Shown: piece after piece, positions 5,382 through 26,311 of the stretch
How the letters are laid out: each line of letters begins with the position of its first letter
Position numbering within the stretch: position 1 is the stretch's first letter
Assembly (NCBI GenBank): GCA_030428835.1
Contig: JAUIEP010000039.1
Coordinates: 1-34,374, forward strand
Source of the DNA: Gammaproteobacteria bacterium
Lineage (GTDB): Bacteria; Pseudomonadota; Gammaproteobacteria; Pseudomonadales; Halieaceae
Length of the DNA: 34,374 bases
Direction: 5' to 3'
Notes under the pieces: model-generated
Seen by the model: the letters and a program-made list of their open reading frames with translations, nothing else
The model's database searches: none
What the model was told of the DNA's origin: nothing
Program-made: the position numbers and the translations under genes

Positions 5382-5397
5382 CAAGGAGAATGCATTG

Positions 5398-6555: not shown

Positions 6556-6594
6556 TTATCAAACGGCGCCACGGGCGCCCACGGAGGCACACCA

Positions 6595-7221
6595 ATGGAC
6601 AGACGGGAATTCCTGGAATGCGCCGCGCTGCTCATCAGCGGCACCGCGCTGCAGCAGCGGGCCTTTGCCCTGAGCAGCGAGCAACAGCAGTACCTCGCAA
6701 CGGCGGACGACTACGTGAGCAAGTCGGCAAAGCTGTTCAGTACGGCACAGCGCAAGCTTGTTGCCGCCGCGGCGGAGACCATCATCCCGCGCACGGAAAC
6801 GCCCGGCGCGATCGACGCCGGCGTGCCGCATTTCATCGAGCTGATGGTCGAGGACTGGTTCAATGATGGCGAGCGCGCCATCTTTATGGCGGGCCTTGCG
6901 GATCTCGAACAGCGCATTCCCGCCGAGCATGGCAAGCCCTTCGACGAACTCGGTGACGAGCAGCAGCTGGCCGTGCTGGAGGCCCTGGAGGCGGCGGCAT
7001 CCGACTCACCCTGGTACCAGCAGGGCAACATCCGCCGCGCGTTCATCAGCGACGCGCCGTTCATCTGCCAGCTCAAGGAACTGACCGTGTGGGGTTTCTT
7101 CACGTCAGAGACCGGGACGAAAGAGGTGCTGCGCTACAACCCGATGCCGATGAAGTTCGACCCCGAGTACCCGAGGAAACCCGGGGACACCACGTGGGCG
7201 CCACCGAACTTTTACCGCTAG
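6595..7221 (+). CDS. Gluconate 2-dehydrogenase subunit 3-like small subunit of GMC oxidoreductase
   Basis: 208 residues, preceded by GGAGG at proper spacing. It starts MDRREFLECAALLISG, a twin-arginine-like signal, as is usual for the small 'hitch-hiker' subunits that carry a folded FAD subunit through the Tat system. The body matches the gluconate 2-dehydrogenase subunit 3 family: LVAAAAETIIPRTETPGA, then GVPHFIELMVEDWF, and near the end FFTSETGTKEVLRYNPMP. The flavoprotein gene follows after 18 bases, the usual order for gluconate 2-dehydrogenase, FAD-glucose dehydrogenase and glucoside 3-dehydrogenase. It is probably an export chaperone and structural subunit in the periplasm, without its own redox centre. 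Confidence 0.9.
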   Translation: MDRREFLECAALLISGTALQQRAFALSSEQQQYLATADDYVSKSAKLFSTAQRKLVAAAAETIIPRTETPGAIDAGVPHFIELMVEDWFNDGERAIFMAGLADLEQRIPAEHGKPFDELGDEQQLAVLEALEAAASDSPWYQQGNIRRAFISDAPFICQLKELTVWGFFTSETGTKEVLRYNPMPMKFDPEYPRKPGDTTWAPPNFYR

Positions 7222-7239
7222 GCCAGGAGAGAACACACG

Positions 7240-11900: not shown

Positions 11901-12437
11901 GATTTCGGGACCTTCTACCCGGGCAGGTACGTATTGCATGCGGCCTACACCGATGCGGGCGCGCCGGGTGATGTACCCGCGCTGCGCGGCACGGCAGCCG
12001 TCATCCTGCATCACCCCAAGCAGACGGCCGGCTTCCTGGCTGACGGTGAGCACCTGAGTAAAATGTCGCTGCAACCCGGGTTCTCGATCGGTGTGCTGGG
12101 CGCGCCGGAGCTTTCCGGCGCATTCGCTCACGCGGTCGCCGAGGCGGTGGATCTGACGGACATCTGCCGGATTGAGGTGAAAGCACTCGCTCTGAGCGGC
12201 ATGCTCGCGGGCGGCGAACTGCAGTTGCGCATTGGCGATTCCGAGGCACCTCTGGGCAGCTTCCCCGTCGAGCCCTCTTTGATGCCGTCGATGGAGGAGC
12301 CGACGGGTGTGTTTGATGTGTCGGGCATCGACGGTGTACACGATCTTCGCCTGGGGTCGCCGGTTACGCAGGACAACGCAGGTAGTGCTATGTACGCGTT
12401 CTCTGAGCTGGTGTTCAAGTTCTGTGCCGGGCGCTAG
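8949..12437 (+). CDS. ThuA - sorbosone/glucose dehydrogenase propeller - PKD - cytochrome c - CBM-like fusion protein
   Basis: 1162 residues from the ATG at 8949, which overlaps the upstream stop (TGATG). Residues 1-20 are a signal peptide or membrane anchor (MKKVILLLVVVAAIAAGVG). Residues 30-240 are a ThuA domain (FSKTADFRHESIP, GGGYVGIHAAADTEW). About 255-690 is a PQQ-type sugar dehydrogenase six-bladed propeller (GLLGLAFDPDF, MQFDAQGNLWLTTGDD, LRGKILRIRP, GLRNPYTIAVDD). About 700-840 holds PKD/Ig-like domains. Cys877-His-Ala-Cys880-His881 with Met927 (HAMPSHP) is a class I cytochrome c. The last 140 residues resemble a carbohydrate-binding module (CBM6-like). Similar ThuA/propeller/cytochrome combinations are known, and sequence does not prove that PQQ is bound. 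The haem could accept electrons from the GMC enzyme upstream, which is inference. Confidence 0.85.
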   Translation: MKKVILLLVVVAAIAAGVGYVYKNRPIPDFGRSVLVFSKTADFRHESIPKGIETLTQLGRSGKFNVVATEDAGVFSDDSLGGFRAVVFLNTTGDVLNAEQQNAFERYIQAGGGYVGIHAAADTEWKEAPWGWYQRLVGGVFESHPRDSDQLATLRATGAAHPATDDLPGEWQASDEWYDFKRLSDGIRVLIEVDETTYQDGQMGESHPITWYREFDGGRSFYTGLGHTDAVYDNSTFQQLLLGGIDWAMGEAALDYTRSRPEIWRFSHRILDSALDEPLKLAFSPAGDLYFIERGGAIKRYDFEAQESKTVAQLEVFTAQEYGLLGLAFDPDFASNQWLYLYRTVPQGDTARLVLSRFRLHEDQLDLDSEQELLSMPGDGNVRIRTTHTGGDMQFDAQGNLWLTTGDDTEADNHGRIDDRPGFLYHDAARTSGNTNDLRGKILRIRPRAEPDANGRYYDIPDGNLFATPEEGRPEIYVMGLRNPYTIAVDDRTGTVYWGEVGPDGREDDARGPMGYDEINRSTAPGNFGWPYVIGDNFAYHYYDKANEAVLDRVDVNAPENRSRNNTGARILPPAQPAWIYYPYGDSDRFFELESGGRNALVTTPFYSEDYADSPIKFPDWLDGKLIIGDFMRRWLQVVSLDSAGEIESITPLIDHRFSAPLDMAFGPDGALYVVEYGTTWFEANPDAYLSRVEFYPGDNPAPVAIARADKSVGAVPLATVLDASDSYDRGADAATLRYRWERMVNGKAVELLGTAQRQPVQFTTPGEHRVRLTVTDEGDSSHEQYLRFVAGNEPPEVSIEIKGNRSFYREGQTLEYEVAVTDLEDGDSAAPGFPGHRVVVNSTYVRSDKEPEEALAQFNVDPLLLGRELVTSGSDCHACHQQAEASIGPSLEAIAERYAARPDAVEYLSASIGDGVSGQWGGSHAMPSHPDLSAGELRAASAFILSLAGAGDVQDAQALTGSLQFDAHQDDSISVRLENIVTVDFGTFYPGRYVLHAAYTDAGAPGDVPALRGTAAVILHHPKQTAGFLADGEHLSKMSLQPGFSIGVLGAPELSGAFAHAVAEAVDLTDICRIEVKALALSGMLAGGELQLRIGDSEAPLGSFPVEPSLMPSMEEPTGVFDVSGIDGVHDLRLGSPVTQDNAGSAMYAFSELVFKFCAGR

Positions 12438-12476: not shown

Positions 12477-13922
12477 CTACCCGAGTCGCGCCGCCACGCG
12501 CGGCAGGTCCCTCACCGTGCGGATGCCCGGCTCGGCCGCGCACACGTAGGGAATCGCGTTGACCGCGCCGAAGGCGGTGTAACCCGACATCTGCTCCGCG
12601 ACCGGCGCGCCGGTCAGCGGCATGCCGATGCTGATGTCCAGCGGCGCGTCGCCCTCCACCTGCACGCGCCAGCCGTTGTCGCCCAGTTGCCAGTCGCGTG
12701 TAAGGTCCGTGCTGCAATACCAGTTGGAGCGGAAGCGCAGCACGGGCTCGCCGTTGCGCAGGCCCGCCACCGTCACGCGCAGTGCCGCCACCGTGCCCTG
12801 CTCGATGGCGGCGCCGTCCGCCAGTGTCACGCGTTCTTTAGCCGCCGCCGTCTCGCCGAACATGTCGAAACCGTCGAGCGTGATGGACAGCGCGTCGGCC
12901 AGCGTGGTCAGCGAATCCTCGAAACACTGCGCCATGTGCATGAGCAGGCCCGGGTCGATGGCGTCTTCCAGCGGCCGGCCGTAGCCCATGACGTCGAAGA
13001 TCATCTCGGTGGAGCAGGAGGCCGGTATGTCCGCGAACTCGTCGATGGTCAGGCAGTCCAGGCGGCGCTGGATGGAGGTCAGCACCAGCGGCAGCGCCTC
13101 GGTAATGAAGCCGGGACTGGAGCCGGTCGCGTGCAGCGACGCGCCGCCCGCCTCACACGCGGCCTCGATGCGCTCGCGCAAGTCGCGCGGCATCTTGCGC
13201 GGGTTGAAGAACTCGCCGCGCGTGGTGATCACGTTGATGCCGGCGCTAAGCAGCGCGCACAGGTCGTCGGCGTCGTACCCTTCCTGCATATAAAGGACGC
13301 AGTCGGGCTGCAGCGCGATGATGTCGTCGCGGCTGCGCGTGGCTGTCACGCCGACGGGGTCGATGCCGCAGATCTCGCCCGCGTCGCGGCCTTCCTTGTC
13401 TTGCGAGTGCACGCGCAGACCCACCAGTTCGAGGTTGGGGTGGTTCACCACCGCGCGCAGGCTGCCCATGCCGACCTTGCCGGTGGCCCACTGCACCACG
13501 CGCCACTGTTCCAGGTGCTCGGCGAGGCAGTGCAGGAGGTAGTCGATGTTGCCCTGCGCGCGGCCGCAGGCCTCGTCTTCCGGCAGGTCGCTGCCGCTGA
13601 AGCTGCAGCGCCAGTCCACCCGGCAGCCCGCGCCGGGCAACTCGGTGACGCTCGCGCTGCCCCGGTAGTTGTGGAAGGGCAGCATGGGGTGCGGCGCGAT
13701 GGTGTAGGTCAGCGCGCGTGATTCGGGGTCGATCGAGGTCAGGGTCTCCTCGACCGGATCATTGCCGCCCATGTGCAGGCGCCGCATGGGGCCGGCGGGT
13801 GTCTCGACGAGTTCGGTCTTCTCCGGCCCCGGGATCCAGCCGATTTCGCCCCAGTCGGCCAGTAGTTCCCAGGCGCGCGCGGCGGGTACGCGCAGGGTGC
13901 GGGCGGCGTGGATATTGGGCAT
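12477..13922 (-). CDS. SRPBCC domain fused to DapB-like NAD(P)-dependent dehydrogenase
   Basis: 481 residues; the start has AAGGTGAT about eight bases upstream. Residues 1-137 are an SRPBCC (polyketide cyclase/START-like) domain: ARTLRVPAARAWELLADWG, then PFHNYRGSASVTEL and VDWRCSFSG. From Trp140 the sequence changes to the dihydrodipicolinate reductase-like family, with the Rossmann strand RVVQWATGKVG and a C-terminal domain seen in 2,4-diaminopentanoate dehydrogenase-like proteins. Stand-alone members begin at just this point, for example the paralogue at 23554-24612 (MLRIVQWSTGGVG), so the fusion has almost no linker. It is transcribed divergently from the P450 gene and ends 39 bases from the convergent fusion gene. 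It probably reduces or oxidises a carbonyl or imine of a hydrophobic ligand that the SRPBCC domain may hold; this is inference. Confidence 0.8.
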   Translation of the reverse strand: MPNIHAARTLRVPAARAWELLADWGEIGWIPGPEKTELVETPAGPMRRLHMGGNDPVEETLTSIDPESRALTYTIAPHPMLPFHNYRGSASVTELPGAGCRVDWRCSFSGSDLPEDEACGRAQGNIDYLLHCLAEHLEQWRVVQWATGKVGMGSLRAVVNHPNLELVGLRVHSQDKEGRDAGEICGIDPVGVTATRSRDDIIALQPDCVLYMQEGYDADDLCALLSAGINVITTRGEFFNPRKMPRDLRERIEAACEAGGASLHATGSSPGFITEALPLVLTSIQRRLDCLTIDEFADIPASCSTEMIFDVMGYGRPLEDAIDPGLLMHMAQCFEDSLTTLADALSITLDGFDMFGETAAAKERVTLADGAAIEQGTVAALRVTVAGLRNGEPVLRFRSNWYCSTDLTRDWQLGDNGWRVQVEGDAPLDISIGMPLTGAPVAEQMSGYTAFGAVNAIPYVCAAEPGIRTVRDLPRVAARLG

Positions 13923-14031: not shown

Positions 14032-15237
14032 ATGAGCACAGAGGCGCAGACAAGCGGCGACGCGGTTTACTGGGACCCTTACCGTCCCGACCTGGGCAAG
14101 GACCCGTACCCCACCTACAAGCGGATGCGCGCCGAGGCGCCGCTGTACTACAACCCGGACTACGACTTCTATGCGGTGACCCGCTTCAACGATGTCGAGG
14201 CCTGCCTCAGCGATCACCAGAACTTCATCTCCGGTCGCAGCGACATCCTGGAATTCATCCGCGAGGACATGGAAGTTCCGCCCGGCATGTTCATCTGGGA
14301 AGACCCGCCGCTGCACACGGCCTACCGCACGGTGGTGATGCGCGTGTTCACACCCAAGCGCATGAACGACCTCGAGGGCATGATCCGCGACTACTGCGCG
14401 CGCTGCCTCGACGCGGTCGTCGGCCGGGACAAGATCGACTTCATCGCCGACCTGGGCGGCCAGTTACCCGGCGGGGTGATCGGCATGCTGCTGGGTATTC
14501 CCGACGAGGACCGCGACGCCGTGCGCGACCGCGTGGAAGCCGCCCTGCGCACCGAGGAAGGCAAGCCCATGGAGATGGACCAGGCGGCCATCATGGGGGA
14601 AAACTTCGAGGCCTATATCGACTGGCGCATGGACAACCCGTCCGACGACCTGATGACGGAACTGCTGAACACCGAGTTCAAGGACCCGGAGGGTGTCGTG
14701 CGCAAGCTGACGAAGGAAGAGGTGCTGATCTTCGTCAACCTGCTCGCCGGCGCGGGCAACGAGACCACCTCCAAACTGATCGGCTGGATGGGCAAGCTGT
14801 TGGGTGAGCATCCCGACCAGCGTCGCGCCGTCGCCGCTGACCTGTCCCTCGTGAACAATACCATCGAGGAAATACTGCGCTTCGAGCCGCCCGGTCCCTC
14901 CGTTGCGCGCTACGTCGCCAACGATGTCGTGGTGCAGGGCCAGACGGTGCCCGCGGGCAGCGTCATGCTCAACATCATCGCGGCGGCCAATCGTGACGAA
15001 GGCCGCTTCGTAGACGGCGAACGCTTCGATATCCATCGCCAGGGACCGCCGCACATGACGTTCGGGCGCGGCATCCACACCTGCCTCGGCATGGCGCTCG
15101 CCCGCGTTGAAGGGCGCGTCGCGCTGGAGGAGATCCTCAAGCGCTTCCCCGACTGGACTGTCGACACCGACAACGCGCAACTGTCGTCCTCTTCCTCCAC
15201 CCGCGGCTGGGACACCATGCCCGTCTTCGTGGGTTGA
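14032..15237 (+). CDS. Cytochrome P450 (bacterial class I type)
   Basis: 401 residues, a normal length for a soluble bacterial P450. The I-helix has LLAGAGNETTSKLIGW (acid-Thr pair near residues 244-246), the K-helix EEILRFEPP supplies ExxR, and the haem loop is FGRGIHTCLGMALAR with Cys351 as thiolate ligand. There is no membrane anchor. A 2Fe-2S ferredoxin gene follows after 18 bases and is the likely electron donor; the ferredoxin reductase is not in the window. It would hydroxylate a hydrophobic substrate. The neighbouring dehydrogenases, SDRs and acyl-CoA ligase fit a terpenoid, steroid or aromatic side-chain pathway, but the substrate is unknown and I assign no CYP number. Confidence 0.93.
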   Translation: MSTEAQTSGDAVYWDPYRPDLGKDPYPTYKRMRAEAPLYYNPDYDFYAVTRFNDVEACLSDHQNFISGRSDILEFIREDMEVPPGMFIWEDPPLHTAYRTVVMRVFTPKRMNDLEGMIRDYCARCLDAVVGRDKIDFIADLGGQLPGGVIGMLLGIPDEDRDAVRDRVEAALRTEEGKPMEMDQAAIMGENFEAYIDWRMDNPSDDLMTELLNTEFKDPEGVVRKLTKEEVLIFVNLLAGAGNETTSKLIGWMGKLLGEHPDQRRAVAADLSLVNNTIEEILRFEPPGPSVARYVANDVVVQGQTVPAGSVMLNIIAAANRDEGRFVDGERFDIHRQGPPHMTFGRGIHTCLGMALARVEGRVALEEILKRFPDWTVDTDNAQLSSSSSTRGWDTMPVFVG

Positions 15238-15255: not shown

Positions 15256-15576
15256 ATGGCAAAGATTACGTATATCTCCCGGGCGGGAGAGGAAACCGTG
15301 CTCGACGTGGCGAATGGCAGCACCGTGATGCGCGGCGCCGTGGACAACGCGGTCAAGGGCATCATCGGTGACTGCGGCGGCGCCTGCTCCTGCGCCACCT
15401 GCCATGTCTACGTCGACCCCGCCTGGCTCGACAGGGTGGGCGAGGTCGGTCCCATCGAGGAGATCCTGCTGGAGGAAGTCTGCGACCCGCAGGACAACAG
15501 CCGCCTCGGCTGCCAGATCACCATCACGGACGAACTCGACGGGCTGGTGGTGCGCCTGCCCGAGAAGCAGGTCTGA
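15256..15576 (+). CDS. [2Fe-2S] ferredoxin, putidaredoxin/adrenodoxin type
   Basis: 106 residues, typical of putidaredoxin-like proteins. The cluster ligands are Cys40, Cys46 and Cys49 ([10 protein letters not shown]) with Cys86 (SRLGCQI) as the fourth. The start [13 protein letters not shown] and the end [10 protein letters not shown] are characteristic of the family. It lies 18 bases after the P450 gene and so is most likely its electron donor in the cytoplasm, accepting electrons from an FAD ferredoxin reductase encoded elsewhere. The RBS is weak (GGA about 12 bases upstream), so translation may depend on coupling with the P450. Confidence 0.95.
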
Positions 15577-15679: not shown

Positions 15680-16726
15680 ATGAGCACACAAGAGTTTCCC
15701 GAACTGAGCTGTTACCTGCTGCCCGGCCACACACAGACTCCGGCGGACGCGATGCAGCAGGCGCGGCAGGCCGAGGCGCTCGGCCTCGGCCGGGTCTGGC
15801 TGTCCGAACGCTTCGACGTGAAGGACGCCGGCGTGATCTGCGGCGCCGCCCTCGCCGTGACCGAGCGCATCGGCGTCGCCACGGCCGCCACCAACCTGCA
15901 TACCCGGCACCCGCACGTGCTGGCGACGATGTGCAGTTCCCTGCACTATTTGTCGGGCGGGCGCTTCACCCTCGGGCTCGCCCGCGGCGTGGGCATACGC
16001 GACGAACTGATGGGCCTGCCCTCGGTGGGTAACCAGCAGATGGCCGAGGGCCTCGATATCCTGCGCACGCTGTGGTCGGGCGGCAAGGTGATGGGCTACA
16101 ACGGCCCGATGGGCAACCTGCCGTACCTCAGCAGCGGCGACTGGCTGGACGCCGACATCCCGGTCTACTTCGTGGGCTTCGGCCCGAAGGCCCTGGTCTT
16201 CGCCGGGCGGCATTTCGACGGCGCGCACCTGCACACGTTCATTACACCCGAGGGCCTGAAGCGCGCCCGCGCCGCGGTGCAGGAGGGCGCCGAAAAGGCG
16301 GGCCGCAATCCCGATGACGTAAAAATCTGCACGGTGCTCGCGACGGCACTTGAGCCCACCCGCGAGGCGCACCTGCGCAAGATGGTGGGCCGGATGGCGA
16401 CCTACATGCAGGCGCCGGGCTATGCTGACATGCTGGTAGCGCTCAACGACTGGGACCCGAAGGTGCTCGAGGACTTCCGCGTGCACCCGGCCGTCACCTC
16501 CGTGCCCGGCGGCATCGACAGCGTGGCCACGCTGGAACAGCTCGAGGAAATCGAGAAGCTGATCCCCGCCGAGTGGCTGTCGGCGGCGGCGGTGGGCAGC
16601 GCGCAGGAATGTGCCGCGCGCATCAGGCTGGAACTCGAGGTCGGCGCCGACGAGGTCTGCATCCACGGCTCGACCCCCGACGAGTTCGCGCCCGTTATCG
16701 ACGCGTATCGCAAACTCAAAGGTTAA
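15680..16726 (+). CDS. LLM-class flavin-dependent oxidoreductase (F420-type subfamily)
   Basis: 348 residues. It shows the luciferase-like barrel: QARQAEALGLGRVWLSERFD, then GVATAATNLHTRHPHVLA, YLSGGRFTLGLARG and, near the end, GADEVCIHGSTPDEFAPV. It resembles a subfamily first defined in mycobacteria as probable F420-dependent (MSMEG_2249-like). No F420 biosynthesis gene is in the window, and many proteobacterial members probably use FMN, so the cofactor is open. It follows the ferredoxin gene after about 100 bases in which I see no terminator, so it may belong to the P450 transcript. Likely role: redox step on a pathway intermediate. Confidence 0.85.
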   Translation: MSTQEFPELSCYLLPGHTQTPADAMQQARQAEALGLGRVWLSERFDVKDAGVICGAALAVTERIGVATAATNLHTRHPHVLATMCSSLHYLSGGRFTLGLARGVGIRDELMGLPSVGNQQMAEGLDILRTLWSGGKVMGYNGPMGNLPYLSSGDWLDADIPVYFVGFGPKALVFAGRHFDGAHLHTFITPEGLKRARAAVQEGAEKAGRNPDDVKICTVLATALEPTREAHLRKMVGRMATYMQAPGYADMLVALNDWDPKVLEDFRVHPAVTSVPGGIDSVATLEQLEEIEKLIPAEWLSAAAVGSAQECAARIRLELEVGADEVCIHGSTPDEFAPVIDAYRKLKG

Positions 16727-16761: not shown

Positions 16762-17742
16762 ATGCAAGCTATCGTCTGCACAGAGCACGGCGCCCCGGAC
16801 CTGTTGCAACTGCAGGACATACCGCGGCCGGAACTCGGCAGCACCCAGGTGCGCGTCAGGGTCAACGCGGTGGGCATCAACTACATCGAGGGCCTGCTGG
16901 TGCAGGGCACCTACCAGATCAAGGTGCCGACCCCGTTTGTGCCGGGCGGCGACCTGGCCGGCGAGGTGATTGAAGTCGGGGCAGAAGTAAGCGGTGTCAC
17001 GCCGGGGCAGCGTGTGCTGGCCAGCACCGGTATCGGTGCGCTCACCGAGGAGGTTGTGCTCGCTCCCGCGCAGTTGACGCCGATCCCCGCGGGCATGAGC
17101 GACGCCCAGGGCGCGACCTTCCTGCAGTCCACCGCCACCGCCTGGTTCGCGCTCAAGCATTGCGGCGCCATCCGCGCCGGCGAAACCCTGCTCGTGCTCG
17201 GCGCCGCCGGGGGTACCGGGATGGCGGCCGTGACGCTCGGCAGGGCGCTGGGCGCGCGGGTGATCGCCGCGGCCTCCACGGAGCAAAAGCTGGCGGCGTG
17301 CCGGGCGGCCGGCGCGCACGAGACCATCAACTACAGCAGCGAGGACCTGAAAACCCGCGCGAAAGAACTGTCCGGCGGCGGCGTGGACCTCGTCTTCGAC
17401 CCCGTGGGTGGCACGCTCGCCGAACCCGCCTTGCGCGCCTGCGCGCCGGGGGCCAGGTACCTCGTTATCGGCTTCGCCGGGGGTCCGATTCCCCAGATCC
17501 CGCTCAACCTGCCGCTGCTCAAACGCTGCTCCATCGTGGGCGTGAACTGGGGCGCCAGCGTGGCGGACGACCCGGCGCTCGTCCCCGCCGTCCACGGCGA
17601 CATTTTGCGGCTGTTCGAGGAAGGGAGTATCCCGCCGCCGCCGATTACCGAGTTCCCGCTCGCGGACACCGCCGGGGCGATGAACAGCCTGCTCAACCGT
17701 GAGCTCGTGGGCCGCGCGGTCGTCAGGGTCGCGCGGGATTAA
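16762..17742 (+). CDS. NAD(P)H:quinone oxidoreductase-like MDR protein (zinc-independent)
   Basis: 326 residues from the ATG at 16762; the frame is open upstream but overlaps the previous gene, and MQAIVCTEHGAP is the normal family N-terminus. It has the GroES-like catalytic fold followed by a Rossmann domain with LVLGAAGGTGMAAV (Gly147-Gly153). The structural and catalytic zinc ligands of alcohol dehydrogenases are absent, so it belongs with quinone oxidoreductases and enoyl reductases. It could reduce an enone or quinone-like intermediate with NADPH. It sits 35 bases after the LLM gene and just before the promoter region at 17777-17810. Specific substrate unknown. Confidence 0.88.
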   Translation: MQAIVCTEHGAPDLLQLQDIPRPELGSTQVRVRVNAVGINYIEGLLVQGTYQIKVPTPFVPGGDLAGEVIEVGAEVSGVTPGQRVLASTGIGALTEEVVLAPAQLTPIPAGMSDAQGATFLQSTATAWFALKHCGAIRAGETLLVLGAAGGTGMAAVTLGRALGARVIAAASTEQKLAACRAAGAHETINYSSEDLKTRAKELSGGGVDLVFDPVGGTLAEPALRACAPGARYLVIGFAGGPIPQIPLNLPLLKRCSIVGVNWGASVADDPALVPAVHGDILRLFEEGSIPPPPITEFPLADTAGAMNSLLNRELVGRAVVRVARD

Positions 17743-17837: not shown

Positions 17838-18413
17838 ATGGCCAAGTTCACGTACGAAGAAATCAAGGCACACCTCGACAAGTGGGTCGAGGCCAACCGC
17901 AGTGCGGGGGAGAAGGGCGAGGGCTGGGACAAGATGTACCAGTTCTACACCGAGGACGCCCTGTACAGCTGGAACTACGGCACCGACTACGAGTTTGTCG
18001 CCCGCGGCCACGAGCAGTTGCGCGACTGGGCGTTCGGCACCGAGATGGCGGGCCTGGACGGCTGGCGCTACCCCTATATCCGCACGCTGATTGACCCGGA
18101 AAAAGGCGAGGTCGCGGTGTTCTGGAGGCAGCAGGCGCCAACCAATGACCCGGATACGGGGAAGCCCTATGAAGCGCTGGGTACGGGCGGTTCCTGGTTC
18201 CGCTACGCCGGCAACGGCAAGTGGAGCTGGCAGCGCGACTGGTTTGACCTGGGCAATGTCACCAGCCTGTTCATCAAGATGATGGAGAACAAGGACCTGT
18301 CCGACGGCATGCTGGCGCGCATGGAGCGCCAGGCCCAGGGTCTGCCCCCGGGCTGGGTGCCGGTGGCTGACTTCGACTGGCTGGCCACGATCGAAGCACC
18401 GGACGATATGTAG
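17838..18413 (+). CDS. SnoaL/NTF2-fold protein (ketosteroid-isomerase-like superfamily)
   Basis: 191 residues from the ATG at 17838, chosen because GGAG (17828-17831) is well spaced before it; an in-frame ATG at 17826 has no such site. The sequence has the cone-shaped NTF2-like pattern: a long first helix, then MYQFYTEDALYSWNYG, FVARGHEQLRDWAFG and the strand FWRQQAPT with SWQRDWFDLG. Many Trp and Tyr residues would line a hydrophobic pocket. Members include isomerases, cyclases, epoxide hydrolases and binding proteins. As the first gene after a likely regulated promoter in an oxidative cluster it could isomerise or hydrate an intermediate; no catalytic residues can be named. Confidence 0.7.
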   Translation: MAKFTYEEIKAHLDKWVEANRSAGEKGEGWDKMYQFYTEDALYSWNYGTDYEFVARGHEQLRDWAFGTEMAGLDGWRYPYIRTLIDPEKGEVAVFWRQQAPTNDPDTGKPYEALGTGGSWFRYAGNGKWSWQRDWFDLGNVTSLFIKMMENKDLSDGMLARMERQAQGLPPGWVPVADFDWLATIEAPDDM

Positions 18414-18461: not shown

Positions 18462-19340
18462 ATGTCAGCGCTGGAGGGTAAGAACGCCGTTGTCACCGGT
18501 TCCAGTATGGGGATCGGCAGGGCGGTGGCCGTGGAACTCGCCGAGCACGGCGCCAACGTGGTGCTGAACAGCAGTTCGAGCAGCGCCGCGCTGGACGAGG
18601 CCGTGGATGCGGCACGCGCCACCGGTGCGAAGGCGATAGCCTGCCCGGGCTCGGTAGCCGATGTGGAGTTCGCACCGGCGCTGATCGAGCGCTGTGTCAG
18701 CGAGTTCGGCGCCATCGACATCCTGGTCAACGTGGCCGGCATCGTGGAACCCCCCGGCAGCTCCATACTGAACATCGAGACCGACGACTGGCTCCGGCAG
18801 ATCGACGTGCACCTGAACGGTACGTTCTACACCTGCCGCCAGGCGGCGCGGCACATGGTCGAACAGGGCCACGGCAGCATCGTCAACACCTGTTCACACG
18901 CGCTGACCGGTTCGTTCGGCGGCACGGGCTATGCCGCGGCCAAGGGCGGTGTGTACAGCCTGACCCTGGCGCTGGCGAAGGACCTCGAGGAATACGGCAT
19001 CCGGGTGAATGCGATCTGCCCGGGCGCGGCGTCGCGGATGTCCACCGGACCGGATTACGAGGCGCACATCGACAGGCTGTTCCGCCGCGGGATTCTCGAC
19101 GCGGGCAGTCGCGACGCCTCGCTCAACCCGGCGCCGCCGGAGTTCCTGGCGCCGGCCTACGCGTTGCTGGCCAGCGACCTGGCGGCGGGCGTTACCGGCA
19201 GGCTGTTTTCGGCGGCCGGCGGTTATCTCGGCGAGTTCCGGGGCCTGCGGGAGACCCTGATCGCCTACAGGGATCATGCGGACGGTGACAAATGGCAGCT
19301 CGAGGAGCTGGCGAACGAGTTGGAGCGCGCGGGCGCCTGA
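18462..19340 (+). CDS. Short-chain dehydrogenase/reductase
   Basis: 292 residues, about 40 more than a classical SDR because of a C-terminal extension. Cofactor motif TGSSMGIG (12-19), NVAG in place of NNAG near residue 90, catalytic Ser145, Tyr157 and Lys161 (YAAAK) are all present. It would interconvert an alcohol and a ketone with NAD(P). It stands just before the CYP51-ferredoxin fusion. From memory, an SDR gene also neighbours cyp51 and its ferredoxin in Mycobacterium tuberculosis (Rv0765c-Rv0763c), so this may be a conserved unit that oxidises the P450 product. The link is inference. Confidence 0.9.
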   Translation: MSALEGKNAVVTGSSMGIGRAVAVELAEHGANVVLNSSSSSAALDEAVDAARATGAKAIACPGSVADVEFAPALIERCVSEFGAIDILVNVAGIVEPPGSSILNIETDDWLRQIDVHLNGTFYTCRQAARHMVEQGHGSIVNTCSHALTGSFGGTGYAAAKGGVYSLTLALAKDLEEYGIRVNAICPGAASRMSTGPDYEAHIDRLFRRGILDAGSRDASLNPAPPEFLAPAYALLASDLAAGVTGRLFSAAGGYLGEFRGLRETLIAYRDHADGDKWQLEELANELERAGA

Positions 19341-19414
19341 CAGGAAATTCCAGAGGGTAGGGCCGCGCCGACACAGTGCCGGCGGCGGCACCCGATGCAA
19401 GAGAGGACGAAGCA

Positions 19415-21061
19415 GTGAGTGCAACGAAAGAAGCGACAGAGGATGAGATTCACACCGGAGGCAAGGAAGCGCCCGTGCTGCCCGGTGCGGACGCGGAACT
19501 GGGTCACCTGAACGAGCTGCGCGAACGGCCGACCGCGCTGATGCAGCGCGTGGCGGACGAGCTCGGTGAGATCGGCGAGCTCGACTTCGCGGGCAACAAG
19601 GTCGTGATGCTCATGGGTGAGGCGCAGGAGCGCTTCTTCCGCGCGAGCGACGAGCAACTGGATCAGGCGGAAGCCTACCCGTTCATGAAGCCGGTCTTCG
19701 GCGAGGGCGTGGTGTTCGACGCCTCCCCGGAGGAGCGCAAGCAGGCCTTGAAGAACCAGTCGCTGCGCGGCGACTTCATGAAGGGGCACGCGGCCACGGT
19801 CGACCGCGAAGTGCAGGCAGCGATGGACAAGCTCGACGACGAGGGTGAAATCGACCTGCTCGATTTCTTCTCCGAGCTCACGCTGTACACCTCCAGTGCC
19901 TGCCTGATCGGCAAGGAGTTCCGCCAGGAACTGACGCCGGAGTACTTCAAGGTGTTCTACGACCTGGAGAAGGGCACCGACGCCATGGCCTACGTCGACC
20001 CGTACCTCGACCTGCCCGTGTTCCACACGCGCGACAAGGCCCGGGAGCGGCTCGTCGAGCTGCTGGACGGCGTCTTCGAGAAGCGCGACGCCATGGAGGA
20101 CAAGACGGTCGAACTGTTCGACTTCCTGCGCACGCTGAAGGACGAGAACGGCGAGGCCCTGTACTCCACCGACAAGATCACCGGGATGTTCATCTCCATG
20201 ATGTTCGCGGGGCACCACACCACCAGCGGCACCGCGGCGTGGACGCTCATCGAGCTGTTGAAGAACCCCGCTGTGCTGGCCGACGTGGTAGAGGAACTGG
20301 ACGAACTGTACGCCGACGGTCGTGATATCAGCCACCAGGCGCTGCGCGAGATTCCCCTGCTGGAGAGCAGCATCAAGGAGGCGCTGCGCCTGCACCCGCC
20401 GCTGATCCTGCTGATGCGCAAGGTTATGTACGACTTCCACTACAAGGGCTGGACGGTACCCGCGGGCAAGCTGGTCGGCGTGTCGCCCTCGGTGTCCAAC
20501 CGCATGCCCGAGTGTTTCCCCAACCCCGAGGCCTTCGATCCCACCCGCTACACCGGTGACCGCGCGGAAGACAAGCAGCTCTTCGCCTGGATCCCGTTCG
20601 GCGCGGGCCGGCACCGCTGCGTGGGCGCGGCCTTCGCCATGATGCAGTTGAAGGCCATCTTCAGCGCGGTGTTGCGCAACTTCGAGTTCGAGTTGTCGCA
20701 GCCGGTGGAGACCTACCGCAACGACGAGAGCAAGATGGTCATCCAGCTCGAGCAGCCGTGCATGGCGCGCTACCGCAGGCGCGTGCCGGCTGGAGCGGCC
20801 GTGACCGGCAAGAGCAAGGCGGCCGGGCAGGACGCCGCGGACGACAGGCCGCAGGCCAGTTTCACCATCGAGATCGACCGCGACCTGTGCCAGAGCCACG
20901 CAGTGTGTGTCAGCGAGGCGCCCGAGGTATTCTCGCTGGACGAGAACAAGGAGGTCGTGATCGCCACGGACATCGCGGACGCGGACAGCCACGCCATCGA
21001 CATGGCCGTGAAGTTCTGTCCCACGGGTGCCTTGACGCTCAAGCCCATCAACAGGGGCTAG
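19415..21061 (+). CDS. CYP51-family cytochrome P450 fused to a 3Fe-4S-type ferredoxin
   Basis: 548 residues from the GTG at 19415, chosen for AGAGGA seven bases upstream; another GTG at 19376 has no RBS. The P450 part (about 1-455) matches bacterial CYP51 closely: AYPFMKPVFGEGVVFDASPE, MMFAGHHTTSGTAAWTLIEL (His267, Thr270), EALRLHPPLILLMR and FGAGRHRCVGAAFA with haem ligand Cys402. A linker rich in Ala, Gly and Lys (about 455-480) leads to a ferredoxin domain with Cys492, His495, Cys498 and Cys535-Pro536, the pattern CX2HX2C...CP of P450-linked 3Fe-4S-type ferredoxins. A CYP51-ferredoxin fusion was described in Methylococcus capsulatus as a sterol 14-demethylase. No sterol biosynthesis gene is seen here, so a role in steroid or triterpenoid breakdown is equally possible. 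Confidence 0.9.
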   Translation: MSATKEATEDEIHTGGKEAPVLPGADAELGHLNELRERPTALMQRVADELGEIGELDFAGNKVVMLMGEAQERFFRASDEQLDQAEAYPFMKPVFGEGVVFDASPEERKQALKNQSLRGDFMKGHAATVDREVQAAMDKLDDEGEIDLLDFFSELTLYTSSACLIGKEFRQELTPEYFKVFYDLEKGTDAMAYVDPYLDLPVFHTRDKARERLVELLDGVFEKRDAMEDKTVELFDFLRTLKDENGEALYSTDKITGMFISMMFAGHHTTSGTAAWTLIELLKNPAVLADVVEELDELYADGRDISHQALREIPLLESSIKEALRLHPPLILLMRKVMYDFHYKGWTVPAGKLVGVSPSVSNRMPECFPNPEAFDPTRYTGDRAEDKQLFAWIPFGAGRHRCVGAAFAMMQLKAIFSAVLRNFEFELSQPVETYRNDESKMVIQLEQPCMARYRRRVPAGAAVTGKSKAAGQDAADDRPQASFTIEIDRDLCQSHAVCVSEAPEVFSLDENKEVVIATDIADADSHAIDMAVKFCPTGALTLKPINRG

Positions 21062-21147: not shown

Positions 21148-22170
21148 ATGAAGGTTTTTGTGACGGGCGGCTCCGGCTTCATCGGGGCGCACACCACCAT
21201 GGCGCTGCTGGACGCGGGTCACGAGGTGCGCCTGCTCGTGCGCAATCGCGCAGCAGCGGATGCATATTTCACGCAGCGCGGTTACAGCATCACCGACTAC
21301 GTGGTCGCCGACCTGCAGGATACTGCCGCGGTGATCGACGGCATGGCCGGTTGCGACGCGCTCTTTCACGCCGCCGCCATGGTCAGCGTCGACCCGCGCC
21401 AGGCGCAGGAGATACGCCGCACCAACCAGGGCACGATACGCGCCATCATGCAGGGCGCGCTCGACAGGGGCGTGCGGAACATCGTCTACGTGTCGAGCAT
21501 GATCGCGCTGTTCGCGCCCGGCGTCACCGCGATCGATGACAGTTCGCCCCTGGGAACGTTCAACAGCCCGTACGCGGCGTCCAAGCGGGAGTGCGACGCG
21601 TACGTGCGCGAGTTGCAGTCGCGGGGCGCCCCGATCCAGATGACCTACGCTAGCGGCGTTTACGGCCCGGACGACCCGAAGCTCAGCGAGAGCAACGAGG
21701 CGCTGATCGCGTTCCTCTCGATGATCCCCAACACCACGAGTGGCATGCACTGCGTCGACGTGCGCGATGTCGCCCTGGCTCACCGCTACCTGCTGGAGAA
21801 CCCGGTGGCGGCGGGGGGCGACAACACAGGTGCGCGGTACATACTGGCCGGCCCGTATTACACCTGGCCGGAATTCCACCGGCTCATCTGCGAGGTGACG
21901 GGGCGCGATATCCGGCATCCGCGTATGCCGGGCCCGGTCCTGCGGGGCGTGGGTCGCGCGCTGGACCTGGTGCGCAGGTTCCGCCCGATCGACTACCCGA
22001 TGACGACGGAATCCATGCAGGTCACCACGCGTTTCCCGGTCGCGGACTCCAGCAGGATCGAGCGACTGGCGGGCCTCGAGTTCCGGCCCGGCAGGGAAAC
22101 CTTTACCGAGACCCTCGCGTGGCTCGCACGTGAAGGGCACATCAAACCCAGGTGGGCCGGGCTCGAATAG
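21148..22170 (+). CDS. Extended SDR, NAD-dependent epimerase/dehydratase or 3-beta-HSD-like
   Basis: 340 residues. The N-terminus MKVFVTGGSGFIGAHT is the extended-SDR nucleotide motif TGxxGxxG (6-13). Ser116/117 (VYVSSM), Tyr142 and Lys146 (PYAASK) form the catalytic set, and ASGVYGPDDP and HCVDVRDVALAH are the usual later motifs. The mid-section resembles 3-beta-hydroxysteroid dehydrogenase/dihydroflavonol reductase types more than sugar epimerases. It would oxidise or reduce a hydroxyl group of a cyclic substrate, which fits two P450s nearby. It follows a terminator hairpin by 22 bases and precedes an unrecognised gene by 37 bases. Confidence 0.85.
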   Translation: MKVFVTGGSGFIGAHTTMALLDAGHEVRLLVRNRAAADAYFTQRGYSITDYVVADLQDTAAVIDGMAGCDALFHAAAMVSVDPRQAQEIRRTNQGTIRAIMQGALDRGVRNIVYVSSMIALFAPGVTAIDDSSPLGTFNSPYAASKRECDAYVRELQSRGAPIQMTYASGVYGPDDPKLSESNEALIAFLSMIPNTTSGMHCVDVRDVALAHRYLLENPVAAGGDNTGARYILAGPYYTWPEFHRLICEVTGRDIRHPRMPGPVLRGVGRALDLVRRFRPIDYPMTTESMQVTTRFPVADSSRIERLAGLEFRPGRETFTETLAWLAREGHIKPRWAGLE

Positions 22171-22207: not shown

Positions 22208-23542
22208 ATGGCACTACGCGACGATTACCTGGGCGATTTCGACCCCACCCTGGACCTCACGGGTTTTTCCAGGGCGTTCCTGTCCCGCCTGATGCACGAG
22301 TACAACCTGATCGGGCACCTGCTCGACCGGTCGGGGCAGCCGCTCGTCGCGCTGGAATACGGCGAGGAGGGCTTTGTGCGCTCCGGCATCGAGGAGTGGC
22401 AGTGCGCGAGCCCCATCTACTCCAGGCGCATGCAGAAGCTGATGAAGTTCGAGGGCAGTGACGTCGGCACGGTATTCAAGAACATCCAGTTGGAGGTGGG
22501 CGCGCCGCAGCAGTTCCTGGACTTCCAGTTCCGCCTGGACTCCCCCGGGTACGGCGAGTTCTGGCTGCCGCACTGCGGCGCGCTGACCGACCTGGAGCGC
22601 AATGGCGACGAGGGCAAGCTGACCAAGCTCATGTGCCACGACATCGAGGACCCCACCTTCGACGCGACCGCGGCCGCCACCCACCCGAAGATGATCATGC
22701 GCCCCGTGCACCGCCCGCCGCGCAATGACTCGCCGGTCGGCAACGGCAAGGACCGCTATCCGGTCTGCCGCTGGATGGTGATGTTGTCCGACGAGGTGCA
22801 GGACTACGACAACCACCCCAACCTCGCGGTCATGGCGCAGACCCATATCGCGAACATCGACATCGCCGTACCCGGTGACAAGGTCGAGGAGGGAGGATGG
22901 GACAATTACGCGGGCGCTTTCGACCCGCACTGCCAGTTCGAGGACTTCTCGCAGTGGGCGCTGGTGCAGTTACTGCAGGAGAACGCCGTGCAGGCGACGA
23001 TGCTCGCGCACAGCTACACGCTCAGCCAGACCACGAATTACGGCGAGGAGGTCAGCCGCCGCTTCACGAGCCAGCTCTTCGAGGGCCACGCGGCGGTCGG
23101 CGTGCAACGATTGCAGGAAAACATCGAGGGACTGGCCGGCAACGACATCGGCACGATCGCGAAAGTGATCCAGTTGCACCCGATCTTCCAGCCGCGCACC
23201 TACATCGATATCGCCATCGAGCAGTTGTCGGATGACCGCCTGCGCCTGTCGGTCAACGACTGTCCGGCGCTCAACGAAACCATAGCGCACGGCTGGTTCA
23301 CCCAGCTCGGCCCGGAGCCGCACCCCGCGCTGGATGCTCTGGTCGCGCAGGTGAATCCGCGGGCCTACTGTGTTGCCGCAGACGACCCCGGCTCCGCCAG
23401 GTTCGCGTGGGACATCGCCATCGACCCGGGCAGGGCGCCGGCGGAAGCGCCGATCGCACTGCAACTGGCGCGCACCAGTAGCGGCATGGACTTCAAGTTC
23501 GAGCAGCGGCGCCTGCCGGTGGGGCTTATCGCGCGCGGTTGA
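22208..23542 (+). CDS. Conserved-looking protein of unknown function, 444 residues
   Basis: The start at 22208 has AAGGAG (22193-22198) nine bases upstream; the frame is open into the previous gene but without a good site. I do not recognise the family. There is no signal peptide or membrane helix, so it is probably cytoplasmic. It mixes long acidic helices (FSRAFLSRLMHEYNLIGHLL, then QWALVQLLQENAVQATMLA) with strands (YIDIAIEQLSDDRLRLSVND). Conserved-looking points are LPHCGALTDLERNGD, MCHDIEDPTFD and QLHPIFQPRTY. Codon use matches its neighbours, so it is a real gene. It lies between an extended SDR and the convergent DapB-like gene (11-base gap), so it may act on the same compound. No enzymatic role can be claimed. 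Confidence 0.8.
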   Translation: MALRDDYLGDFDPTLDLTGFSRAFLSRLMHEYNLIGHLLDRSGQPLVALEYGEEGFVRSGIEEWQCASPIYSRRMQKLMKFEGSDVGTVFKNIQLEVGAPQQFLDFQFRLDSPGYGEFWLPHCGALTDLERNGDEGKLTKLMCHDIEDPTFDATAAATHPKMIMRPVHRPPRNDSPVGNGKDRYPVCRWMVMLSDEVQDYDNHPNLAVMAQTHIANIDIAVPGDKVEEGGWDNYAGAFDPHCQFEDFSQWALVQLLQENAVQATMLAHSYTLSQTTNYGEEVSRRFTSQLFEGHAAVGVQRLQENIEGLAGNDIGTIAKVIQLHPIFQPRTYIDIAIEQLSDDRLRLSVNDCPALNETIAHGWFTQLGPEPHPALDALVAQVNPRAYCVAADDPGSARFAWDIAIDPGRAPAEAPIALQLARTSSGMDFKFEQRRLPVGLIARG

Positions 23543-23553
23543 CGCGGACTCAG

Positions 23554-24612
23554 TCAGCTTTTTAGCACCTGCCACGGTACCGTAAGCGGCAGTTCCATGG
23601 CGGTCACCAGCCCGGGCCGCGCCCGGCACACGTGCGGGATCGCGTTGACGATGCGCATCGCCGTCGCCGTCATGCCGTCCCGCGAGTAGCTCTCGTTGTC
23701 GCCGAGCGTCAGCTCCACGCGGATGTCGGGGTCGCCCTGTATCTCTACCCGGTAGGTGCCGTGGTGTTCGGCCTGAGGCCAGTGCGGGGCGATGTCGGCC
23801 GACATCCGGTTCACGTGCTCGATAACGATCGCGTCCCGGCCGTCCACCACGCCGATGGTCTCGAAGCGCACCGCGCCCACCGTGCCCGCCTCGATGCGGC
23901 CGATAGCCACATCCAGTGGCCGCTCCGTGACTTCCTTGTAGTAGGTCTCGCGGATGTCCTGCAACTCCAGCCCGAGCGCGTCGGCGACCATCCTCACCGG
24001 CGCCGACCAGGTCATGGCCTGCACGCCCGGCAGTTCTATGATCACTTTGTCCTCCGGCGGCCGGCCGAAGCCGAACACGTCGCGCATGACCTCCACTACC
24101 GGGTAGTCGTCGTAGCGGAAGATCTCCTGGGTGCGAATGCTCGTGATGGAGCGCGACAGCGTCGTCAGCAGCAGCACCAGGTGGTCGGCGGCGAAACCGG
24201 GCTCGATGCCGGAGACATAGAGCGACGCATTGCCCCTCGTCGCGGCGTCGTGGATGCGCGCAAGGCTCTCCCCGTCGTAGCCGCTGTGGTGCACGAGACC
24301 CGCGATCGAGGTGCTGACGATGTTGATGCCCGCCTCGAGCAGGGTGCAAAAGCGCTCGATGACCTCGCCCGGCCGCACGTCGCCGTTCTCGCAGAACACG
24401 ACGCAGTCGGGTTTGAGGGACAGGACTTCGTCTATGTCGCGGGTCGCCGTGATGCCCCAGGGCGGTTCCCCCAGTATGTCGCCGATGTCGCGACCGCCCT
24501 TGGCCTCGGCGTGCACCAGCACACCCACGAGATCCAGCTCCGCGCGCTCGCGGATCGCGCGTGCAGCGAGGGCGCCCACGCCACCGGTGGACCATTGAAC
24601 AATGCGCAACAT
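23554..24612 (-). CDS. DapB-like NAD(P)-dependent dehydrogenase
   Basis: 352 residues; RBS AGGGAGGA lies seven bases before the start. It opens with the Rossmann motif MLRIVQWSTGGVGALAARAI of the dihydrodipicolinate reductase-like family often annotated as NAD(P)H-dependent amine dehydrogenase or 2,4-diaminopentanoate dehydrogenase-like. It aligns by eye along its length with the C-terminal part of the fusion at 12477-13922 (for example PDCVVFCE against PDCVLYMQ, and NAIPHVCRARPG against NAIPYVCAAEPG), so the two are paralogues. The metabolic amine dehydrogenase role is unlikely here; such genes recur in terpenoid and steroid-like catabolic clusters, where the reaction is not settled. It is divergent from the acyl-CoA ligase. 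Confidence 0.85.
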   Translation of the reverse strand: MLRIVQWSTGGVGALAARAIRERAELDLVGVLVHAEAKGGRDIGDILGEPPWGITATRDIDEVLSLKPDCVVFCENGDVRPGEVIERFCTLLEAGINIVSTSIAGLVHHSGYDGESLARIHDAATRGNASLYVSGIEPGFAADHLVLLLTTLSRSITSIRTQEIFRYDDYPVVEVMRDVFGFGRPPEDKVIIELPGVQAMTWSAPVRMVADALGLELQDIRETYYKEVTERPLDVAIGRIEAGTVGAVRFETIGVVDGRDAIVIEHVNRMSADIAPHWPQAEHHGTYRVEIQGDPDIRVELTLGDNESYSRDGMTATAMRIVNAIPHVCRARPGLVTAMELPLTVPWQVLKS

Positions 24613-24697: not shown

Positions 24698-26311
24698 ATG
24701 AACCCGCTTCCGCTGCACAGGACGGAGGATCGCCACCTGGCGCGCATCCTTGAACTGCAGGCGCAGACCAACGGCGACACCCCGTTCCTGATCTCGGATC
24801 ACCTGCGTGTCACCTATGCCGAGGCGGACGACATCACCGCGCGCATGGCGGCGGGCTTTGCCGGGCTGGGCATCGGCCGCGGCGACCGCGTGTGCCTGCT
24901 CATGGCGAACGTGCCGGAGCTCGTGCTCGTGTGCCTGGCGCTGAACAAGCTCGGGGCGATCTGGGTGCCGATCTGCACGGACTACCGGGGCGAGTGGCTG
25001 CGCGACACGCTGCGGCGCAGCCGCTGTGTCGCCCTGTTCACCGACCTTGCTCACCTGCCCCGGTACCTCGAGGTGCAGGAGGCGTGCGACGTGCGGCAGT
25101 TGTACCTGCTTGACGGTGACGCGGCGGATGCGCCCGGCGCCGTCTCCTACGCGACGCTGCTGGACAACGCGCCCCACCGCTTCGACCACACACAGTTCGA
25201 CTACGGCGATACCTGCGCCATTCTCTGGACCTCGGGCACCACGGGGCGCTCCAAGGGCGTGATGCAGTCGCACAACAACTGGATTCGCTCCACGCAGCTC
25301 GGCGCCGGGCTGCAATACACGCTGCGCCCCGGCGATATCGTGTACTGCGCGTTGCCGCTGTATAACTCGGGCTCGTGGCTGACCTGCGTGGTGCGCGCGA
25401 TGATGGGCGGCATCGGCTGTGTGATCGAGGAGAAGTTCTCCGTCAGCCGCTTCATGGAGCGTATCGCGCACTTCAACGCCACGCAGACCTTCGCCATCGG
25501 CGCCATGGGCGTGTTCCTGATGCATTCCCCCGAGCGCGACGACGACGCCGACACGCCGCTGCGCGAGGCCGCCATCGCGCCGATGCCACCCGAGCTCTGG
25601 CAGAAGTTCGAACAGCGCTTCGGCGTGCGCCTGAACCGCGCCGGGCTGGGCATGAGCGAGTGCCTTTTGCACCTCAACCAGGAACACACCGACCTGGACC
25701 TGCCCACCTACTGCCTGGGCCTGCCCGTGCCGGATGTCGACGTGCGCCTGTTCGACGAGGAGGGCGTCGAGGTACCCGATGGCGAGACCGGCGAGATCTG
25801 GGTGCGGCCGCTGGCGCCGCACATCCTCTGCAACGGCTATTTCGACGACCCGGAAAGCACGCGTAACGCCTTTAGTGGCGACTGGTTCATGACCGGCGAC
25901 CTCGCGCGGCGTGACCCGGAGACGCGCGCGTTCTACTTCGTCGATCGCAAGAAAGACGCCGTGCGCTTTGCCGGCAGGAACATCTCGACCCTCGAGGTGG
26001 AGAACGTGGTGCGCCGCCATGCGTCCGTCAAGGATGTGGCGGCGTTCGGCATCCCGAGCGAGTTGCTGGCCAGCGACGACGAACTGGCGCTGGCCGTCGT
26101 CCTGCACGAGGGCGCCGCGCTGGCGCCGGACGAACTGTGCGCCTTCATCAACGATGCCGCGCCGTACTATTTCGTACCGCGCTACATCGACTTCGTCGAC
26201 GCGCTGCCGTACACGCCGACCAACAAGGTGCAGAAGTTTGTCCTGCGCGAGCGCGGGGTCGGTGCCGGTACCTGGGACCTGAAACAATCGAACTACGAGG
26301 TGAGGCGCTAG
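24698..26311 (+). CDS. AMP-binding acyl-CoA synthetase (CaiC-like)
   Basis: 537 residues from the ATG at 24698 (GGCAGG about nine bases upstream); a start at 24602 would overlap the divergent gene. Adenylate-forming motifs are present in order: TSGTTGRSKGVMQSH (phosphate loop, about 178-192), GLGMSEC, WFMTGDLARRD, FVDRKKDAVRFAGRNIS and the C-terminal PTNKVQKF with the catalytic Lys. It resembles carnitine/crotonobetaine-CoA ligases and fatty-acyl-CoA synthetases used in catabolism. It activates a carboxylic acid to its CoA thioester in the cytoplasm, likely the acid formed after oxidation by the P450 and dehydrogenase enzymes nearby. The following SDR starts one base after its stop. Confidence 0.92.
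   Translation: MNPLPLHRTEDRHLARILELQAQTNGDTPFLISDHLRVTYAEADDITARMAAGFAGLGIGRGDRVCLLMANVPELVLVCLALNKLGAIWVPICTDYRGEWLRDTLRRSRCVALFTDLAHLPRYLEVQEACDVRQLYLLDGDAADAPGAVSYATLLDNAPHRFDHTQFDYGDTCAILWTSGTTGRSKGVMQSHNNWIRSTQLGAGLQYTLRPGDIVYCALPLYNSGSWLTCVVRAMMGGIGCVIEEKFSVSRFMERIAHFNATQTFAIGAMGVFLMHSPERDDDADTPLREAAIAPMPPELWQKFEQRFGVRLNRAGLGMSECLLHLNQEHTDLDLPTYCLGLPVPDVDVRLFDEEGVEVPDGETGEIWVRPLAPHILCNGYFDDPESTRNAFSGDWFMTGDLARRDPETRAFYFVDRKKDAVRFAGRNISTLEVENVVRRHASVKDVAAFGIPSELLASDDELALAVVLHEGAALAPDELCAFINDAAPYYFVPRYIDFVDALPYTPTNKVQKFVLRERGVGAGTWDLKQSNYEVRR

Follow-up and report, generated by a model that had tools for sequence, protein, structure and literature searches.

Gene content and organisation of the locus

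The sequence analysed here (the window) is a stretch of 34,374 nucleotides, contig JAUIEP010000039.1 of assembly GCA_030428835.1, from a gammaproteobacterium of the family Halieaceae. The features discussed below are as follows.

14032..15237, + strand: second P450 (PF00067, 98.6 bits)
15256..15576, + strand: 2Fe-2S ferredoxin adjoining the second P450 (Fer2, 25.8 bits)
15680..16726, + strand: F420-dependent LLM oxidoreductase (TIGR03857, 360.9 bits, cut-off 218.4)
16762..17742, + strand: zinc-type/quinone oxidoreductase (PF00107, 89.7 bits)
17838..18413, + strand: 8,14-sterol reductase (8,14-Bsr) homologue with predicted NTF2 fold, 191 aa (residue match, 84-row alignment, model)
18462..19340, + strand: SDR between Bsr and CYP51 (PF00106, 161.8 bits)
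19415..21061, + strand: CYP51-ferredoxin fusion, 548 aa (frame open from 19376)
19499..20758, + strand: P450 (CYP51) domain of the fusion (PF00067, 239 bits, residues 42-461 of the 561-aa frame)
20867..21037, + strand: 3Fe-4S-type ferredoxin domain of the fusion (Fer4_15, 41.7 bits, residues 498-554; CxxHxxC...CP)
21148..22170, + strand: 3beta-HSD/SdmB-like SDR (3Beta_HSD, 57.9 bits)
22208..23542, + strand: U444, a conserved protein of 444 aa without a family match
24698..26311, + strand: acyl-CoA ligase (PF00501, 220.1 bits)

The genes for the Bsr homologue, the SDR, the CYP51-ferredoxin fusion, the HSD-like SDR and U444 share a strand and stand 37 to 86 bases apart from one gene to the next (using the 19415 start), the Bsr gene being two genes upstream of the fusion. 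An earlier note on this DNA had described a CYP51 relative with a C-terminal ferredoxin lying among SDRs, an acyl-CoA ligase and another P450, with no sterol biosynthesis genes in view. All of these neighbours are present, the fusion is borne out by its Pfam domains (p450 and Fer4_15), PDB matches and motifs, and none of the window ORFs scanned scored over cut-off for sterol synthesis. The Bsr homologue, U444 and two other CYP51 genes of the genome were absent from that note.

DAP_DH_C-type dehydrogenases are encoded on the - strand on both sides of this cassette (12477-13922 and 23554-24579), one of them possessing an N-terminal Polyketide_cyc2 domain. Further upstream, positions 1-12437 encode on the + strand a GH106 rhamnosidase (942 bits), ThuA domains, a GMC oxidoreductase, a gluconate-dehydrogenase subunit (Gluconate_2-dh3) and a GSDH with PKD and cytochrome c-like parts.

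The CYP51-ferredoxin fusion and its phylogeny

The ORF of the fusion is open from 19376 to 21061 (561 aa), and the Pfam residue numbers refer to this frame. Translation probably begins at the GTG at 19415, which follows AGAGAGGA, for a protein of 548 aa. Comparison with PDB sequences showed matches to 1x8v, a CYP51 chain (E 1.7e-163), to 1e9x, named CYP51-like Rv0764c (E 7.8e-163), and to 6mcw (E 7.5e-147), the last aligned over residues 29-557, ferredoxin included. We take the sources of 1x8v and 6mcw to be M. tuberculosis and Methylococcus capsulatus, respectively. The B'-helix AYPFMKPVFGEGVVFD, the I-helix FAGHHTTSG and the heme motif PFGAGRHRCVG, read in the sequence, are all intact, and the first two are presumably CYP51 signatures. 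The ferredoxin part reads CQSHAVC...CP, which is a CxxHxxC...CP pattern; in a 2019 review of mycobacterial P450s, such a motif is tied to a [3Fe-4S] cluster (PMC6469627). These comparisons confirm the predicted product of 19415-21061 as a CYP51 family P450 that shares a single ORF with a 3Fe-4S-type ferredoxin.

A quick maximum-likelihood tree was built from 86 CYP51 rows, 32 rows of loci L073-L119 having been dropped beforehand; its outgroup branch is long and its root unsure. The window CYP51 and that of its closest relative (locus L040, 87% identical) were placed among Myxococcota sequences (SH-aLRT 97-99), in a clade of 49 rows, mostly Myxococcota and Actinomycetota. The CYP51 of M. capsulatus falls in a separate 16-row clade together with CYP51s from the order to which the window belongs, most of them fused. 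Since the window CYP51 nests among Myxococcota and not with Methylococcus, it was probably gained horizontally from a Myxococcota-like source.

The 8,14-sterol reductase homologue

A bacterial NTF2-fold 8,14-sterol reductase, which acts directly after CYP51 and converts its product to an 8(14)-sterol, has been described by Lee, Giner and Welander (2026; PMC13277303). In that paper six pocket residues were tested (Y37, Y43, Y78, Y80, D133 and D136 in M. capsulatus), and homologues were reported from gammaproteobacteria and others, often adjoining CYP51. Judged by its residues and predicted fold, the product of 17838-18413 is a homologue of this enzyme. Its SnoaL_2 match (27.0 bits) is the same as the cut-off, and its predicted model (pLDDT 92.7) matches NTF2-family chains, including ketosteroid isomerase 1w00 (E 1.3e-5). 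All six probed residues are kept (Y37, Y43, Y78, Y80, D134 and D137), the pairing with the M. capsulatus residues being made by number and spacing, plus F37 of Haloechinothrix aidingensis. Five of the six are invariant in all 84 rows of the alignment (84/84), while position 37 is Y in 73 rows and F in 11; the latter include H. aidingensis (L076), for which F37 is also given in PMC13277303. The second Bsr of the same genome possesses an identical set of six residues. A Bsr homologue of Nocardioides alcanivorans (L104:11585-13720) shares one frame of 712 aa with an aldehyde dehydrogenase.

Conservation of the neighbouring genes

A contig scan confirmed 311 relatives, the best 80 of which were taken as named loci; several of these stop at contig ends. 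Loci of the window's own order were tested where flanks of about 1.5 kb were available (29 of 44 places). A Bsr match over 60 bits was identified anywhere in the locus in 68 of the named loci (best 80 of 311); 66 of these 80 loci, and 21 of the 29 order loci, carry one on the same strand as CYP51 and no more than 2.5 kb from it. By a motif test, the CYP51 is fused to ferredoxin in 32 of the 80 (again the best 80 of 311) and in 14/29 order loci.

The closest relative (L040) retains the order LLM, Bsr, SDR, CYP51-ferredoxin, HSD, with its SDR at the same position (77%) and its LLM oxidoreductase adjoining Bsr (81%). Among the best 80 of the 311 relatives, L040 is the only locus with the LLM gene within 2.5 kb of CYP51, and the SDR at 18462-19340 has a homologue (over 80 bits, same strand, same distance) in 14 of the 80. 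A homologue of the HSD-like SDR was found within 2.5 kb of CYP51 in 14/29 order loci and in six of the named loci (best 80 of 311). A P450 resembling the second P450 of the window lies equally close to CYP51 in 54 of the best 80 of 311; the PDB chains closest to the window protein hydroxylate a range of substrates, and no counterpart was seen at L040. Homologues of the acyl-CoA ligase are located near the second CYP51 of the same genome (65%) and, in another genome (G047), between two CYP51 genes (73%).

No sequence match to U444 emerged from Pfam, NCBIfam or PDB. Its 25 homologues (30-53% identity) align well and all come from loci carrying CYP51, some of them not adjacent to it; among Myxococcota and Actinomycetota, the protein is a conserved feature of CYP51/Bsr loci. 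The predicted model is confident (pLDDT 90.4) but only weakly resembles H-NOX, Bet3 and phenol-sensor domains. U444 may represent a new family involved in the pathway proposed below, perhaps as a sterol binder.

Sterol synthesis and steroid degradation in the genome

The genome assembly (5.23 Mb, 319 contigs) is 99.98% complete with 3.06% contamination. The earlier note had proposed a search of the genome for oxidosqualene cyclase and squalene epoxidase, and neither was found. No SQHop_cyclase match (PF13243, C-terminal domain) occurred among five candidates from the whole genome, in a search that was positive in 2/14 control genomes. The sole match to squalene epoxidase in the whole genome was marginal (20.1 bits), in a protein scoring 430.9 bits, over cut-off, to UbiH/UbiF-family hydroxylases; the epoxidase model also matches in E. 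coli. The organism is apparently without the ability to make sterols.

Homologues of steroid ring-degradation enzymes were identified. There are seven KshA_C matches over cut-off, and a KstD homologue (603.7 bits, under the curated NCBIfam cut-off) adjoins a KshA_C protein. Matches to HsaA (342.4 bits), HsaC (165.6 and 223.1) and HsaD (148.5) all fall short of the cut-offs curated by NCBIfam, and the HsaC and HsaD candidates score slightly higher against biphenyl-type models than against the steroid ones; three of these homologues sit inside one 20-kb stretch. No SdmAB-type C4-demethylase scored over cut-off: the HSD-like SDR reached 98.4 bits against the SdmB model (cut-off 600), and of the three KshA_C proteins scanned out of seven, two matched SdmA at 73.1 and 42 bits (cut-off 600) and the third gave no match. 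Since the C4 methyls would also have to be removed, this counts against a role of the cassette in degradation. P450 searches gave 41 match segments in the genome, about 36 frames. One further locus (L192, G000:C275) holds matches over cut-offs to cofC, cofD, cofE, cofG (partial at the locus end) and npdG, on the basis of which coenzyme F420 is probably made.

Three CYP51 genes are carried by this genome: the window copy and one each on contigs C93 and C167, the latter two falling in a third clade of the tree (20 rows). The C93 copy is unfused and has its own ferredoxin gene and its own Bsr; the only other genome sampled from the genus, G201, also has a CYP51 of this type. The C167 copy has a ferredoxin gene nearby, and its B'-helix signature reads VQYG, the FD having been lost; no Bsr was seen on its 16.7-kb contig. 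A PF04116 (fatty acid hydroxylase) protein lies beside it (L121:396-1511). Contigs C93 and C167 could include contamination.

Co-occurrence of CYP51, Bsr, HsaA and cyclase

The distribution of these genes was examined in 293 genomes sampled from the larger order, with thresholds of E<=1e-60 for CYP51, E<=7.1e-41 for Bsr (strong Bsr), E<=1e-50 for HsaA and E<=0.001 for cyclase; since the genomes are related, Fisher p values from them are not independent tests. CYP51 was found in 39/293 genomes, at 44 places. Strong Bsr occurred in 25/293 genomes (15 genera, 10 families), all with CYP51, and in none of the 254 genomes without it. It was missing from 14 of the 39 CYP51 genomes, including G214 and G254 whose CYP51 is fused, a result that counts against the degradation reading. 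Left out of this count are six further genomes whose Bsr-like matches are all weaker (best E 1.5e-19 to 3.2e-16); CYP51 is present in four of them and absent from G186 and G286 (E about 1e-17).

HsaA was identified in 31/39 CYP51 genomes versus 55/254 others, and in 19/25 strong-Bsr genomes versus 67/268 others, its curated cut-off being passed in only one of the 293. The six Bsr genomes without HsaA (G017, G031, G045, G059, G092 and G120) speak against a uniform rule. A cyclase match was seen in 13/293 genomes (11 over cut-off), comprising 3/39 CYP51 genomes and 0/25 strong-Bsr genomes; with so few cyclases overall, the lack of one in Bsr genomes carries no significance on its own (Fisher p 0.61). 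Ten families of the order include genomes with CYP51-Bsr but no cyclase, and in 7/10 of these some member has HsaA.

The three genomes with both cyclase and CYP51 (G105, G157 and G260) have cyclases of the DCTAE type. The open frames at L149, L150 and L151 are 1125-1138 aa long. At L149 (G157:C35, around 7833-8807), near a distant CYP51, a squalene epoxidase part precedes the oxidosqualene cyclase (DCTAE); this frame, which alone among those of 1125-1138 aa was covered by the Pfam scan, looks like an epoxidase-cyclase fusion.

Cyclase and HsaA were also searched for in the named genomes of 46 of the 80 loci (best 80 of 311). Cyclase-domain matches (E<=0.001) were found in 17/46, 12 over cut-off; two were DCTAE-type, six had a DDTA motif and one high-scoring match had no motif assignment. 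Oxidosqualene cyclase thus accompanies a related CYP51 in 2/46 named genomes, which again counts against degradation. HsaA was present in 32/46 (16 over cut-off) and missing from 14/46.

Proposed function of the cassette

We consider it probable that the CYP51-ferredoxin/Bsr cassette lets a steroid-degrading gammaproteobacterium use 14-alpha-methyl sterols, as an early step of their breakdown. The substrates would be imported sterols retaining the 14-alpha methyl, such as lanosterol, obtusifoliol or similar precursors. The fusion would oxidise off C32 to give an 8,14-diene, with its ferredoxin as electron supply, and 8,14-Bsr would reduce and shift the double bonds to the 8(14)-ene. The HSD/SDR enzymes may then act on the 3-hydroxyl and the acyl-CoA ligase on the side-chain acid, and KstD/Ksh/Hsa-type enzymes of the genome would open the nucleus. 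The genes, their order, the residues, the failure to find a cyclase, the ring-degradation homologues and the order-wide co-occurrence come from the present analysis, and the CYP51-ferredoxin and Bsr reactions are taken from the literature on homologues; from these we infer the identity of the substrate, the order of the later steps and growth as the purpose. Besides the points already named, the KstD and Hsa scores under cut-off, the Bsr and named genomes lacking HsaA, the weak Bsr-like matches of G186 and G286, and an assembly of 319 contigs with 3.06% contamination count against this reading. The further proposal, that CYP51, 8,14-Bsr, the F420-linked oxidoreductase and U444 work together as a catabolic module dedicated to 14-methylated sterols or to triterpenoids of the lanostane type, is more doubtful, and we advance it tentatively.

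Imported 14-methyl sterols might instead be trimmed to 8(14)-sterols that are kept for membrane or signal and not used as food. CYP51 and Bsr alone yield a finished 8(14)-sterol in E. coli, as described in PMC13277303, and the 6/25 Bsr genomes and 14/46 named genomes lacking HsaA would fit such remodelling. Against this, KstD, KshA and Hsa homologues occur in the same genome, HsaA is enriched among CYP51 genomes, and acyl-CoA ligases lie near two of the genome's CYP51 loci, and we regard remodelling as unlikely. It is also quite unlikely that the fusion works outside a sterol pathway, oxidising for example a triterpenoid, hopanoid or xenobiotic. The 41 P450 match segments of the genome and its three CYP51 paralogues, one of which has VQYG in place of the signature and no Bsr on its contig, favour such a substrate, but the window copy keeps the mycobacterial CYP51 sequence at the signature sites and lies beside a homologue of the enzyme that takes the CYP51 product as its substrate.

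The upstream genes raise the prospect of lanostane-type triterpenoid glycoside (saponin) breakdown, in which the products of 1-12437 would remove sugars and CYP51-Bsr would treat the aglycone. Although the GH106, GMC, Gluconate_2-dh3, ThuA and GSDH genes all share the + strand, they have no match over 80 bits in the compared loci (L040 covers 10 kb upstream of CYP51, too short for most of them) and are parted from the cassette by a DAP_DH_C-type gene on the - strand, which leaves this a remote prospect. Finally, that the organism makes its own sterols is barely credible: M. capsulatus does use this architecture for biosynthesis (PMC13277303), but the nearly complete assembly yielded no cyclase, its squalene epoxidase match is UbiH/UbiF-type, and the same search does find cyclases in the order, for instance near CYP51 in G157.

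For the preferred reading, early breakdown of 14-alpha-methyl sterols, the Bsr neighbour, the ring-degradation homologues and the failure to find a cyclase strengthen the proposal of the earlier note that this CYP51 serves to degrade outside steroids or triterpenoids, a use that we infer. Its claim of a new role has to be narrowed, because a role on exogenous lanosterol has already been proposed for Mycobacterium in PMC13277303; a catabolic CYP51 is therefore not wholly new. This genome unites CYP51 and Bsr with ring-degradation homologues, without a detectable cyclase, and the setting makes it testable whether CYP51-Bsr is a catabolic entry step.

Comparison with known systems

The CYP51-ferredoxin/Bsr pair, including its occurrence in gammaproteobacteria, is already in print, as is the proposed use of exogenous lanosterol by mycobacteria. 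In PMC13277303, formation of the 8,14-diene by CYP51-ferredoxin and then of the 8(14)-ene by Bsr was shown in E. coli. The M. capsulatus system (CYP51-ferredoxin, 6mcw, and 8,14-Bsr) likewise has a P450-ferredoxin fusion, the same kind of catalytic motifs and a genomic 8,14-Bsr homologue. The likeness to M. capsulatus drawn in the earlier note thus stands for the fused architecture but not for descent: the two CYP51s belong to different clades, and M. capsulatus makes sterols whereas no cyclase was found in the window genome. More distant are the CYP51s of G105, G157 and G260 from the same order (32-35% identity, frames of 483-495 aa), which, unlike that of the window, have no matched ferredoxin part and lie within about 4 kb of a cyclase.

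The mycobacterial CYP51B1/ferredoxin/8,14-Bsr system resembles the window through the best PDB matches of its CYP51. PMC13277303 cites a Mycobacterium that converted lanosterol to a C19 steroid bearing an 8(14) double bond, and M. tuberculosis has no complete sterol synthesis pathway according to PMC6469627. Related Actinomycetota, such as L071, have a CYP51-ferredoxin-Bsr neighbourhood as in the window, but at L071 the ferredoxin is unfused by the motif test and the other flanking genes differ. Nearest after L040 are the fused CYP51-ferredoxins of Myxococcota, Binatota and delta-type MAGs (most of L041-L063), often with Bsr adjoining; at these loci an LLM gene is missing from the same strand within 2.5 kb, and the HSD lies near CYP51 in only a few, whereas the window has both.
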